A stretch of DNA of 64,000 nt from Lebetimonas natsushimae (lineage in GTDB: Bacteria > Campylobacterota > Campylobacteria > Campylobacterales > Nautiliaceae), in contig NZ_BDME01000001.1 of the NCBI RefSeq assembly GCF_002335445.1, positions 310,001-374,000 on the forward strand. The letters run 5' to 3'. Made by a program: the position numbers and the translations under genes. Below, piece after piece: positions 15,853 to 47,685 of the stretch (positions are counted from its first letter, which is position 1; each line of letters starts with the position of its first letter). Under the pieces are notes generated by a model. The model was not told the origin of the DNA. It did not search any database and worked only from the letters and a program-made list of their open reading frames with translations.

Positions 15853-16953
15853 ATGGACGCATTTGAATATTCAGAACTTATTAAAGAACTTGAAAATAAA
15901 TTAAACAATATAAAGGCTATTTTAAAACCTGAGATAATAAAAAAAAGACTCTCTGAAATAGAGAAAATGGAAAATGATCCTGAATTTTGGAATGATCCTA
16001 AAAAAAGTGCAAAAATCCAAAAAGAAAAAAATATTTTAACTAAAAAATTAAATCAGTTTCTTGAAGTTGAAAAAGAACTTATGGACAATAAGGATATGTA
16101 TGAATTAGCCAGCATGGAAGAAGATGAAGATACTTTAAATGAAGTTTTTGAAGAAGCCGAGAAGCTTAAAAATAAAATTAGAGAACTTGAAATCGAAGTA
16201 ATGCTAAGTGATGAAAACGATGCTAAAAATGCGATTATCACCATTCACCCGGGTGCCGGCGGGACAGAAAGCCACGACTGGGCCAGCATGCTTTACAGGA
16301 TGTATTTAAGGTTTGCTGAGAGAAAAGGCTGGAAGGTAAAAGTGCTTGATTATCAGGCTGGTGATGAAGCCGGAATAAAAGATGCCACTATTTTGGTAGA
16401 GGGCGATAATGCATATGGTTATTTAAAGGCGGAAAACGGAATTCACAGGCTTGTGAGGGTTTCACCGTTTGACAGCGGTGGAAGGCGTCACACATCATTC
16501 GCTTCAGTTCAGGTTTCCCCTGAAATTGATGATGATATAGAAATCGAAATAGACCCAAAAGATATAAGACTCGATGTGTTCAGGGCGAGCGGGGCCGGAG
16601 GTCAGCACGTAAACAAAACTGAAAGTGCTGTAAGGATTACCCATATTCCAACGGGAATAGTGGTTTCCTGTCAGCAGGACAGAAGTCAGCATAAAAATAA
16701 AGAGATGGCATTTAAAATGTTAAAGTCAAAACTTTATGAACTGGAACTTGAAAAAAGAAAAGCTGAGGAAGACGGAAAACCCAAAGATGAAATGGGTTGG
16801 GGGCATCAGATTAGAAGTTATGTACTTTTCCCTTATCAGCAAATAAAAGATAATAGAAGTAACAAGGCATATTCAAAAGTCGACGATATATTAGACGGAG
16901 ACTTGCAGGAAGTTATAGAAGATGTGCTAATTTCTCAGAAGGAGAAAAGCTGA
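15853..16953 (+). CDS. prfB: Peptide chain release factor 2
   Basis: Terminates translation at UGA/UAA. 366 residues. GGQ lies in [15 protein letters not shown], and the RF2-specific SPF tripeptide is in [15 protein letters not shown]. The gene is a single open frame: there is no CTTTGA +1 frameshift site near codon 25, so the classical autoregulation is absent. ATG 15853 is chosen over GTG 15850 because AAGGA is 5 nt upstream. Its TGA stop overlaps the CTG start of the next gene (CTGA), tying it to the pilus operon. Confidence 0.96.
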
Positions 16954-17564
16954 AAAAAGCATTAACTTTAATAGAACTTATTTTTACCATGGTTATAATA
17001 GCCTTTACTTTTAGTGTAATTCCAAAGATTATAGAAGTTTCAAATAAATCTTTGGAATTTTCTAAAAAAGAAGATGCGATTTTTAATATGATGAGTAAGG
17101 CAATGGATATTTCTTTAAAAGAATATGATGAAGAAAATACAAAATATGATGATATCCTGCTTACGGGAAACAGTAATGTTTTAGAATGCAATATTTCAAC
17201 TAACTATAGAACAGGTGGGTTTAAAGGGGGGAGAAACTGTATAAATCATATAATGGAGAGTGATATAGGCTCCGATTCAAACGAGCCGCCTTTTGATGAT
17301 GTGGATGACTATAATGGTTACAATGAAAAGGTAAAAAACGGACATACAACTTATGATATACATGTAACGGCAGGTTATACTGATGAATGGAATAGCTATA
17401 ATAATGATAATTTAAATTTTATTTTTACAAACAGAAGTAATAATACCAAAACGAATATAAAAAGAATTGAAATAAAAGTTTCCCAAAAAAATCATATAAT
17501 TTCTTCTGTAAAATATTATTCTGCAAATATAGGTCACATTAAAATCGGAAGTGTCTTATGGTAA
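16950..17564 (+). CDS. Type IV prepilin-like protein with a CTG start codon
   Basis: 204 residues. The N-terminus reads [18 protein letters not shown], a textbook prepilin leader, cleavage site, Glu+5 and hydrophobic helix. No ATG, GTG or TTG exists in frame before this motif; the first is the internal ATG at 16989, which would remove the leader. CTG 16950 is the codon preceding KKA, AAGGAG lies 5 nt upstream, and it overlaps the prfB stop as CTGA. It is probably a minor (pseudo)pilin of the MSHA-type pilus. The stop codon TAA is supplied by the period-7 repeat. Confidence 0.82.
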
Positions 17565-42474: not shown

Positions 42475-42726
42475 CATATAAAAATACGTATGTGTGTTGC
42501 CTGCAGAAAAAGAGACAGGCAGGATAATTTATACAGATTGCAGTGTAAAAACGGCGAGTTAGTCAGTTTTTCAGGCAGAGGAAGAAGTTTTTATGTATGC
42601 AGAGAATGTATAAATTCAAAAAAATTTATTAATTACATTTCTAAATTATGTAATTTAACCAAAAATGAAGCAAAAGAAAAACTTTTCCATTTTCCATTTT
42701 ATATTAAAGAAAAGGAGTTTATTTGA
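42460..42726 (+). CDS. ylxR: YlxR/DUF448 RNA-binding protein
   Basis: 88 residues. RMCVACRKRD near the N-terminus and GRGRSFYVC are YlxR hallmarks. The family sits next to infB and has been linked to nucleoid or RNase P-related functions. The first five residues (MENGK) and the last ~15 (KLFHFPFYIKEKEFI) are encoded by opposite copies of the period-7 repeat. No clear RBS lies before the ATG. The stop overlaps the infB TTG start. Confidence 0.88.
   Translation: MENGKHIKIRMCVACRKRDRQDNLYRLQCKNGELVSFSGRGRSFYVCRECINSKKFINYISKLCNLTKNEAKEKLFHFPFYIKEKEFI
42683..42703 (-). repeat. Period-7 repeat, right arm of the ylxR-flanking inverted pair
   Basis: Perfect 21-nt reverse complement of 42454-42474, inside the last codons of ylxR (encoding FHFPFY). 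Confidence 0.75.
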
Positions 42727-45217: not shown

Positions 45218-45574
45218 ATGGGTAAAAGTATTAAAGTCCAAAGAAAAGAATCTTTACTTAAAGAGGTAATTCCGGAGGCTCTTTCCCAAATGAATGATGG
45301 AAGAATCAGAGGCTTAAGCGTTGTGGATGTTGTATGCAGTAGGGACGGAAGCGACGCAAAAGTTTATCTTGAAAAAAGTTATCTAAATGAAAACGAACAG
45401 CGCCAAGCCCTTAAACAGCTAAAACAGGCAAGGGGTTATATTCAAAATTACTGCTTAAAATCGACAGGGTGGTTTAAAGTGCCAAATCTCTCTTTTACTT
45501 TTGATGATTTATTAGAACAGGAAAACAAAATGGAAGAATTGTTTGAAAAAATAAAAAAGGAAAAAGGTGAGTAA
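45218..45574 (+). CDS. rbfA: Ribosome-binding factor A
   Basis: 118-residue 30S maturation factor. RKESLLKEVIPEAL, a VVDVVCSRDGSDAKVYLE strand and the late VPNLSFTFDD fit RbfA. Two nt after infB; overlaps rimP by 8 nt. Confidence 0.93.
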   Translation: MGKSIKVQRKESLLKEVIPEALSQMNDGRIRGLSVVDVVCSRDGSDAKVYLEKSYLNENEQRQALKQLKQARGYIQNYCLKSTGWFKVPNLSFTFDDLLEQENKMEELFEKIKKEKGE

Positions 45575-46007
45575 TTTAAAAGATATTATTGAAAAAACTG
45601 TTAAAAATTACGGATGTGAGCTTTATGATATTGATATAACAGAAGAGGGCGGACATAAATATTTTAGAATTTATATTACAAAACCGGGTGGTGTTAATTT
45701 AAATGACTGTGAAGCTATAAACAATATGCTCTCACCTATTTTTGACGTGGAAGAGCCAATTCATGACAGATATTTTCTTGAAGTAAGCTCGCCTGGACTT
45801 GAGAGAAAACTTACCAAAAAAGAGCATTTCTCAAAAAGCATAGGTGAGAGGGTTAAAGTTACCACCAATGAGGGTGAAAAAATAAAAGGTGTTTTAAAAA
45901 GTTTTAATGACGATATAGCAGAAATAGGAAATAAAAAAGTTCATTTTAACGATATTAAAAAGGCAAAAACATATATTGATTGGAATAATTACAAAGGCCT
46001 AAAATAA
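45567..46007 (+). CDS. rimP: Ribosome maturation factor RimP
   Basis: 146 residues. DCEAINNMLSPIFD and the VSSPGLERKL motif are diagnostic. GTG start at 45567 with AAAAGG upstream. The TAA stop overlaps the ATA that appears to start ribD (ATAA). Confidence 0.94.
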   Translation: MSNLKDIIEKTVKNYGCELYDIDITEEGGHKYFRIYITKPGGVNLNDCEAINNMLSPIFDVEEPIHDRYFLEVSSPGLERKLTKKEHFSKSIGERVKVTTNEGEKIKGVLKSFNDDIAEIGNKKVHFNDIKKAKTYIDWNNYKGLK

Positions 46008-46966
46008 AAGCCTTAAGCCTTGCAATTGATGAAGCCTGGAAATACCAGCTTTTAACCTATCCAAACCCTGCTGTCGGATGCAGTGTAATAGTTAACAATA
46101 AAATTTTTGTAGATGCTCATAAAAAAGCAGGTGAGCCTCACGCTGAGGTAAATGCCCTTTTTAAAGCCTTTTCTTTTTTTCATAAGACCCCGGAACTGAA
46201 AACTGCAAAAGAAATTCACGAATTTTTAATTAAAAATCATAATAATTTTTTTAAAGATGCTGAAATTTATGTAACTCTTGAGCCCTGCTCTCATATTGGA
46301 AAAACCCCATCATGTGCGAATTTACTCTCTATTTTAAAACTAAAAAAAATAACTATTGGATGGCTTGACCCTATTAAGGAGCATAGTGGCGGAGTAGAGA
46401 TACTTAAAAATGCAGGAATTGAAGTAGATGTTGTAAATGACAAGAGGTGCTATGATTTGATTGAGCCTTTTATCAAATGGAGTAAAGATAAATTTATATT
46501 TTTTAAACTGGCTCAAAGTCTAAACGGAGTAATTATCGGGGGATATATAAGCTCTGAATCTTCACTAAACTGGGTGCATCAGATAAGGGATAAAATTGAT
46601 TTATTAGTAATTGGCGGAAATACCGTAAGGATTGATAGACCCACACTTGATAGCAGACGGATAAATGGAAAAGCCCCGGATGTTTTGATTTATTCAAAAA
46701 ATAAAAATTTTGATAAAAGTATTCCTCTTTTTAATGTAAATGGAAGAAACATTTTTATTGAGGATAATTTAGATAGACTTAATGATTACAATTTTATAAT
46801 GGTAGAGGGCGGTGAAAATCTTTATAATGAACTTAAAAATTTAGTGGATTGGAAAGTTTTTGTAATTTCTCCTAAGATGTTTATGCGAAATAACTTTAAA
46901 AGTGATGATGAAATTGAAATAATGCATATAGAAAAAAGAGATGATTTTATTGTGTGGAGTAAATGA
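46004..46966 (+). CDS. ribD: RibD riboflavin deaminase/reductase with an ATA start codon
   Basis: Bifunctional enzyme of riboflavin synthesis, 320 residues. Deaminase domain: PNPAVGC, zinc motif HAEVNAL and PCSHIGKTPSC. Reductase domain from ~150: LAQSLNGVI, then the NADPH site LLVIGGNTVRIDRPTLDSR. The frame is open from a stop at 45986, and the first ATG/GTG/TTG is the TTG at 46457, which would delete the whole deaminase. The N-terminus expected from homologs begins at ATA 46004; AAAGG lies 6 nt upstream and ATA overlaps the rimP stop (ATAA). A -1 frameshift from rimP is an alternative. The next gene overlaps (ATGA). Confidence 0.88.
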   Translation: MKALSLAIDEAWKYQLLTYPNPAVGCSVIVNNKIFVDAHKKAGEPHAEVNALFKAFSFFHKTPELKTAKEIHEFLIKNHNNFFKDAEIYVTLEPCSHIGKTPSCANLLSILKLKKITIGWLDPIKEHSGGVEILKNAGIEVDVVNDKRCYDLIEPFIKWSKDKFIFFKLAQSLNGVIIGGYISSESSLNWVHQIRDKIDLLVIGGNTVRIDRPTLDSRRINGKAPDVLIYSKNKNFDKSIPLFNVNGRNIFIEDNLDRLNDYNFIMVEGGENLYNELKNLVDWKVFVISPKMFMRNNFKSDDEIEIMHIEKRDDFIVWSK

Positions 46967-47685
46967 TGGATGTAAAAATATACGATAAACTTGCCCGCCG
47001 TTATGATTTGGCTACAAAAATAGTCAGTTTTGGGATAGAAGAGCTTTGGAGATGGATGTTTATAAGAAAAATAAAAAAGTTTATAAAAAACGGTGTTATG
47101 ATAGATGTGGCAAGTGCTACAGGTGAGATGTCAAAAACGGGATTTAACAAAATTTACTTTATTGAACCAAGCTCTGAAATGGTAAAAATAATGGTTGAGA
47201 AATTTAAAAAAGATGGATTTATTGAAGAAAAATTTGAAGTTCAGTTTCAGGAAAGACCATATATAAAACTAAAAAAAGGTAAAAAAGAATATATAATTAT
47301 TCAGAATACGGCTGAGAATTTTAGCATTGATGAAAAAGCGGATTTAATTACTTCCTTTATGGGACTTAGAAATTTTGATAATCTGCAAAAAGGAATGGAA
47401 AATTTAACCAGGCATTTAAAAGAAGGTGGGTATTTTGCCATTGTTGAAATGGTAAAAAATGATTCGCTAATAGCAAAATTGATTATGTGGTATATGAATA
47501 AAATAGTGCCTTTAATTGCGGGAATAATGCTTGGAATGAAAGAGGAATATAAGTTGCTTGGGAAAAGTATAGTTTCACTTAATGAAGAGAATATTTTAAA
47601 AAATTTAAAAGGTTATAAAATTTTGGAAAAACAAAAACTTATTTTTCCTGTCGCAACTTTAATAATAGCAAGAAAAAATGGATGA
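46963..47685 (+). CDS. UbiE/MenG-like class I methyltransferase
   Basis: 240 residues. A SAM motif I in MIDVASATGEMSK, a motif II-like MGLRNFDNLQKGMENLTRHLKEGGYF and the N-terminal YDKLARRYDLATKIVSFGIEELWR resemble UbiE/COQ5 methyltransferases. The likely substrate is demethylmenaquinone; that is inference. Motif I lacks the usual G-x-G spacing. Confidence 0.75.
   Translation: MMDVKIYDKLARRYDLATKIVSFGIEELWRWMFIRKIKKFIKNGVMIDVASATGEMSKTGFNKIYFIEPSSEMVKIMVEKFKKDGFIEEKFEVQFQERPYIKLKKGKKEYIIIQNTAENFSIDEKADLITSFMGLRNFDNLQKGMENLTRHLKEGGYFAIVEMVKNDSLIAKLIMWYMNKIVPLIAGIMLGMKEEYKLLGKSIVSLNEENILKNLKGYKILEKQKLIFPVATLIIARKNG

Follow-up and report, generated by a model that had tools for sequence, protein, structure and literature searches.

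The window, a 64,000-nt stretch of the Lebetimonas natsushimae genome, carries on its forward strand rimP followed by ribD, with ribD in the −1 register relative to rimP. rimP (45567–46007) starts at a GTG within a GTGA overlap with rbfA and ends at TAA 46005–46007. The ribD frame is closed on its 5′ side by an in-frame TAA at 45986–45988, is open from 45989 to 46963 and stops at 46964–46966. Downstream of the closing TAA it reads TTA CAA AGG CCT AAA ATA AAA GCC, and its first ATG, GTG or TTG is the TTG at 46457. An ATA codon (46004–46006) lies within the tetranucleotide ATAA (46004–46007) that overlaps the rimP stop, 6 nt downstream of a Shine-Dalgarno-like AAAGG (45993–45997); we infer the pairing of the latter, because a pattern search of this genome for the 16S 3′ end gave no match. 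Read from this ATA, ribD comprises 320 codons (46004–46966, + strand), and its stop overlaps in an ATGA with the next gene (46963–47685, + strand), which is putatively methyltransferase-like as judged by eye. Further upstream in the window, infB apparently has a TTG start that overlaps the preceding gene as TTGA (42723–42726).

The ribD frame encodes a bifunctional deaminase/reductase. The deaminase motifs PNPAVGC, HAEVNAL, and PCSHIGKTPSC are all intact, the PF00383 deaminase match begins at residue 7 of the stop-to-stop frame, directly after the ATA codon, and the PF01872 reductase domain is matched as well. RibD scores 214 bits against TIGR00326 (curated cut-off 156), placing it within this family, and matches solved RibD structures. 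Reading frame and domain matches thus confirm the initial annotation, which had described an intact deaminase domain in a frame devoid of ATG, GTG, or TTG until 46457; ribD has a conserved N-terminus and no usable in-frame AUG, GUG, or UUG to start it. As likewise foreseen, standard gene callers would shorten the gene, since a mechanical ORF listing yields for ribD only the TTG-started reductase half (46457–46966, + strand, 169 aa). Such a listing would agree with production of the reductase half alone from TTG 46457, the deaminase half remaining untranslated, a reading that we regard as highly improbable in view of the low dN/dS (~0.08) upstream of this TTG and of a genome that lacks a second ribD. 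The locus is the sole ribD of the genome, and a second copy was considered and discarded.

Selection on the deaminase half was assessed within the genus by comparing two genomes, L. natsushimae and its sister species G001. RibD is 86% identical between them, with synonymous sites near saturation. Over the 151 codons preceding TTG 46457, pS is 0.58 and pN 0.08 (dS 1.11, dN 0.089; dN/dS ~0.08), values that rimP and the reductase half roughly share. As this purifying selection acts upstream of the first standard start, the substitution pattern indicates that the deaminase half is almost certainly translated in both species. The chance of 151 start-free codons is ~0.3% at local codon usage, and a start-free run of this length is found somewhere in 11 of 356 genes, so that the absence of internal standard starts in ribD may be accidental. 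That a second species conserves the N-terminus, likewise without a standard start, is not accidental.

The junction itself reads AATTATAAAGGCTTAAAATAAAAGCCTTA in G001 versus AATTACAAAGGCCTAAAATAAAAGCCTTA in this genome, two differences that are both synonymous in rimP. ATA, ATAA, and AAAGG are all shared, the near-cognate codon thus being conserved in two of two genomes of the genus, and the TAA closing the ribD frame is present in G001 too, together with a second in-frame TAA two codons later. In the stop-to-stop frame of G001 the first standard start comes no earlier than codon 31, which is inside the deaminase domain. A sequence or assembly error at 46004–46006, with a true ATG read as ATA, had been named as a possible refutation; the G001 assembly is indeed indel-prone (29 of 307 genes split), but its errors are indels and not substitutions, and since two species, assembled separately, both show this ATA, such an error is scarcely credible. 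Near codon 258, G001 ribD also seems to shift frame within a run of seven A (L004, about 2290); this is probably an assembly error, because 29 of 307 G001 genes are split likewise. Inspection of the locus in related genomes, which the initial annotation had proposed, revealed a nearby ATG in each of the 16 other Nautiliaceae whose ribD junction could be read. This ATG is located 8–16 codons before a conserved AW in 15 of the 16 and 21 codons before it in the remaining one; the ATA, at codon −10, falls within the range of the relatives. A ribD match is absent from the relative G014 (97% complete genome), reflecting either a missing contig or a real loss.

On these comparisons, ATA 46004–46006 is most likely the only plausible ribD start, and the proposed arrangement, with AAAGG 6 nt upstream and a 4-nt overlap with rimP, stands as the best one. 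The ATAA overlap brings stop and start into the proximity expected of a termination–reinitiation gene pair. A different non-standard start in the ribD frame, for example ATT 46025, which occupies the same place in G001, appears decidedly unlikely: no Shine-Dalgarno-like site precedes this codon, and beginning there would trim the conserved first helix (LAIDEAW). A possible small hairpin, AAGGC…GCCUU (45993–46014, + strand), would place the AUA in its loop. It is weak, with z-scores of −2.6 in G001 and −0.9 in this genome and no covariation, and a functional hairpin at the ribD start was dismissed as significant in one genome only.

The register of the two genes is also compatible with a RimP-RibD fusion produced by −1 frameshifting at CTA AAA TAA, as the initial annotation had considered. 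A Lys tRNA would slip from AAA 46002–46004 to AAA 46001–46003 and skip the stop, ATA then being read as Ile. The A_AAA tetramer followed by a stop is conserved in both L. natsushimae and G001, and programmed −1 frameshifting at A_AAA is known (PMC4066793). Unlike the latter, the ribD junction offers neither a slippery heptamer nor an efficient tetramer, A_AAA standing alone after a codon that would re-pair poorly (CTA in this genome, TTA in G001), and it has no clear stimulator. The short hairpin spans the slip site instead of lying 3′ of it, and AAAGG lies 5′. Among the tetramers active in E. coli, A_AAA ranks lowest even when a pseudoknot assists it, and activity without a pseudoknot or stimulator is almost at background (PMC4066793). 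Moreover, relatives in which a separate, ATG-started ribD adjoins rimP keep the rimP stop at a comparable position, and a fused RimP-RibD was seen in no relative. We consider frameshifting unlikely, and favor AUA initiation over both frameshifting and a different start, because the former has only an A_AAA tetramer and the latter lacks a Shine-Dalgarno site.

We therefore hold it to be probable that translation of ribD in this genus begins at the near-cognate AUA (46004) and is coupled to termination of rimP. Ribosomes ending rimP at UAA 46005–46007 would already be positioned on the ribD start site, where the AAAGG just 5′ may retain them, either whole or as small subunits, after termination. 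AUA would be decoded by the normal initiator tRNA (CAU anticodon) despite a mismatch at the third base, and the product, Met-Lys-Ala-Leu-Ser…, would arise at low efficiency; low output would be tolerable for an enzyme of a vitamin pathway. Coupling is likely; AUA initiation and its efficiency, like the coupling, we infer. AAAGG is a short Shine-Dalgarno match, which counts against AUA initiation, as do intact IF3 and RRF, factors that act against such starts.

Near-cognate starts, AUA included, are already known in bacteria, though rare. AUA starts are documented for S. aureus infC, ccpN, and citZ, and AUA reporters of ccpN and citZ reach ~10–30% of AUG in this organism (PMC13009471). The AUA/AUU starts of S. 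aureus infC, ccpN, citZ, and cvfC1 resemble that of ribD in the third-base mismatch, the upstream Shine-Dalgarno site, the conservation of some of them between species, and their low output, which for ribD is presumed; infC, ccpN, and cvfC1 carry extended Shine-Dalgarno sites, whereas ribD has the short AAAGG and a 4-nt stop–start overlap (PMC13009471). Such an overlap is shared with termination–reinitiation at ATGA/TGATG in bacteria and archaea, the ribD overlap being AUAA instead of the AUGA of these known pairs (PMC6728339, PMC10666635). The same junction letters have been assayed in an E. coli coupled reporter, and the outcome speaks against the coupled AUA start: where RRF was active and a Shine-Dalgarno site was lacking, replacing AUGA by AUAA left no coupled expression (PMC9955659, Fig. 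2e). ribD, in contrast, is under selection and has a Shine-Dalgarno-like site. Without RRF, ribosomes restart in all frames, and a Shine-Dalgarno sequence on the side where the ribD AAAGG sits favors a start placed before the stop (PMC9955659).

Near-cognate starts were further surveyed in 384 kb of this genome against the matching 390 kb of G001. Three genes without a better explanation were found whose N-terminus is conserved ahead of any standard start: ribD (ATA in ATAA), a prepilin-like gene (CTG in CTGA), and truA (ATT in ATTTTAG, a 7-nt overlap). selD-like and fdhA-like genes were set aside as start-less cases, as their in-frame TGA fits selenocysteine; they are located outside the window, at G000:C1 ~417673–418659 (−) for the selD-like and 433981–436254 (+) for the formate-dehydrogenase-like gene. 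This corresponds to 3 near-cognate starts in 411 genes of the genus (356 of at least 100 codons), compared with 1 in 327 genes in the pair of genus g4 (truA, AUU) and none in 182 genes in a more diverged Campylobacterota pair from outside the family; these differences are small and the numbers too few for a rate. Across the 384 kb, ATAA is present in the ribD register at 24 of 119 same-strand junctions, and all but ribD have a standard start only a few codons away. Starts in the four-nt-overlap register comprise 60 ATG, 7 TTG, 1 GTG, one real CTG, and one real ATA, so that the search for further near-cognate overlaps, which the initial annotation had suggested, yielded the prepilin-like gene besides ribD.

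The prepilin-like gene lies in the window (16950–17564, + strand), and its CTG start within CTGA 16950–16953, pointed out earlier, proved to be conserved in the sister species. At this one conserved position the start is CTG in this genus, ATA in G009, ATT in G015, GTG in G007, ATG in G010, and TTG in genus g4 (loci L140–L148). Two of these cases exclude frameshifting, G009 (AUA) and G015 (AUU), because there the preceding gene shares the frame and its stop lies two codons ahead of the start; only initiation or stop readthrough would explain the arrangement. truA apparently starts with ATT in a 7-nt overlap with its upstream gene (G000:C1:593902–594624, −, outside the window), and an AUU start is found for this gene in four species of two genera (L123, L124, L126, L127). 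The gene before truA in this genus ends AAA AAA TTT TAG, at which frameshifting could possibly produce TruA, while truA of genus g4 has the same ATT and no slippery sequence. Taken together, the genomes point to near-cognate starts being really used in this lineage. The broader proposal that reinitiation relaxes start choice found support in that two of the three near-cognate cases lie in 4-nt overlaps and truA in a 7-nt one, but it is not established as a general rule: near-cognate codons occupy 2 of ~70 four-nt overlaps in the 384 kb, too few to conclude, the prepilin AUA and AUU of two relatives sit just after an in-frame stop without overlap, and E. coli AUAA is inactive for coupling when a Shine-Dalgarno site is lacking (PMC9955659).

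Translation factors offer no gross defect as a cause. infC, whose state had been raised by the initial annotation, is intact, and its ATG start, part of an ATGA overlap, rules out AUA/AUU autoregulation of IF3. frr is likewise intact, and loss of infC or RRF was rejected as an explanation, as was an initiator tRNA with an altered anticodon, the one found by pattern having CAU and the usual GGG/CCC anticodon stem. At one IF3 position, which we take to be Arg168 in E. coli, all 19 Nautiliaceae read carry Asn (EGNYIN; infC loci L072–L090) and all 19 readable other Campylobacterota carry Arg (loci L166–L195). Arg168 of IF3 matters for 30S binding. The association of Asn at this position with near-cognate starts in Nautiliaceae is a correlation only. 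With considerable reservation, we suggest that Nautiliaceae might select starts less strictly, perhaps via IF3, with AUA, AUU, and CUG starts recurrently evolving and AUAA serving as a natural reinitiation junction despite its failure in E. coli.

For the annotation of these genomes, callers restricted to ATG, GTG, and TTG halve RibD, and riboflavin synthesis would seem to lack its deaminase step. Across one family the prepilin gene has six different start codons, which makes it a ready-made evolutionary series. If AUA works in a stop–start overlap here but not in E. coli, Nautiliaceae would constitute a natural comparison for start fidelity, addressing the contributions of IF3, RRF, and Shine-Dalgarno strength to start-codon fidelity during reinitiation.
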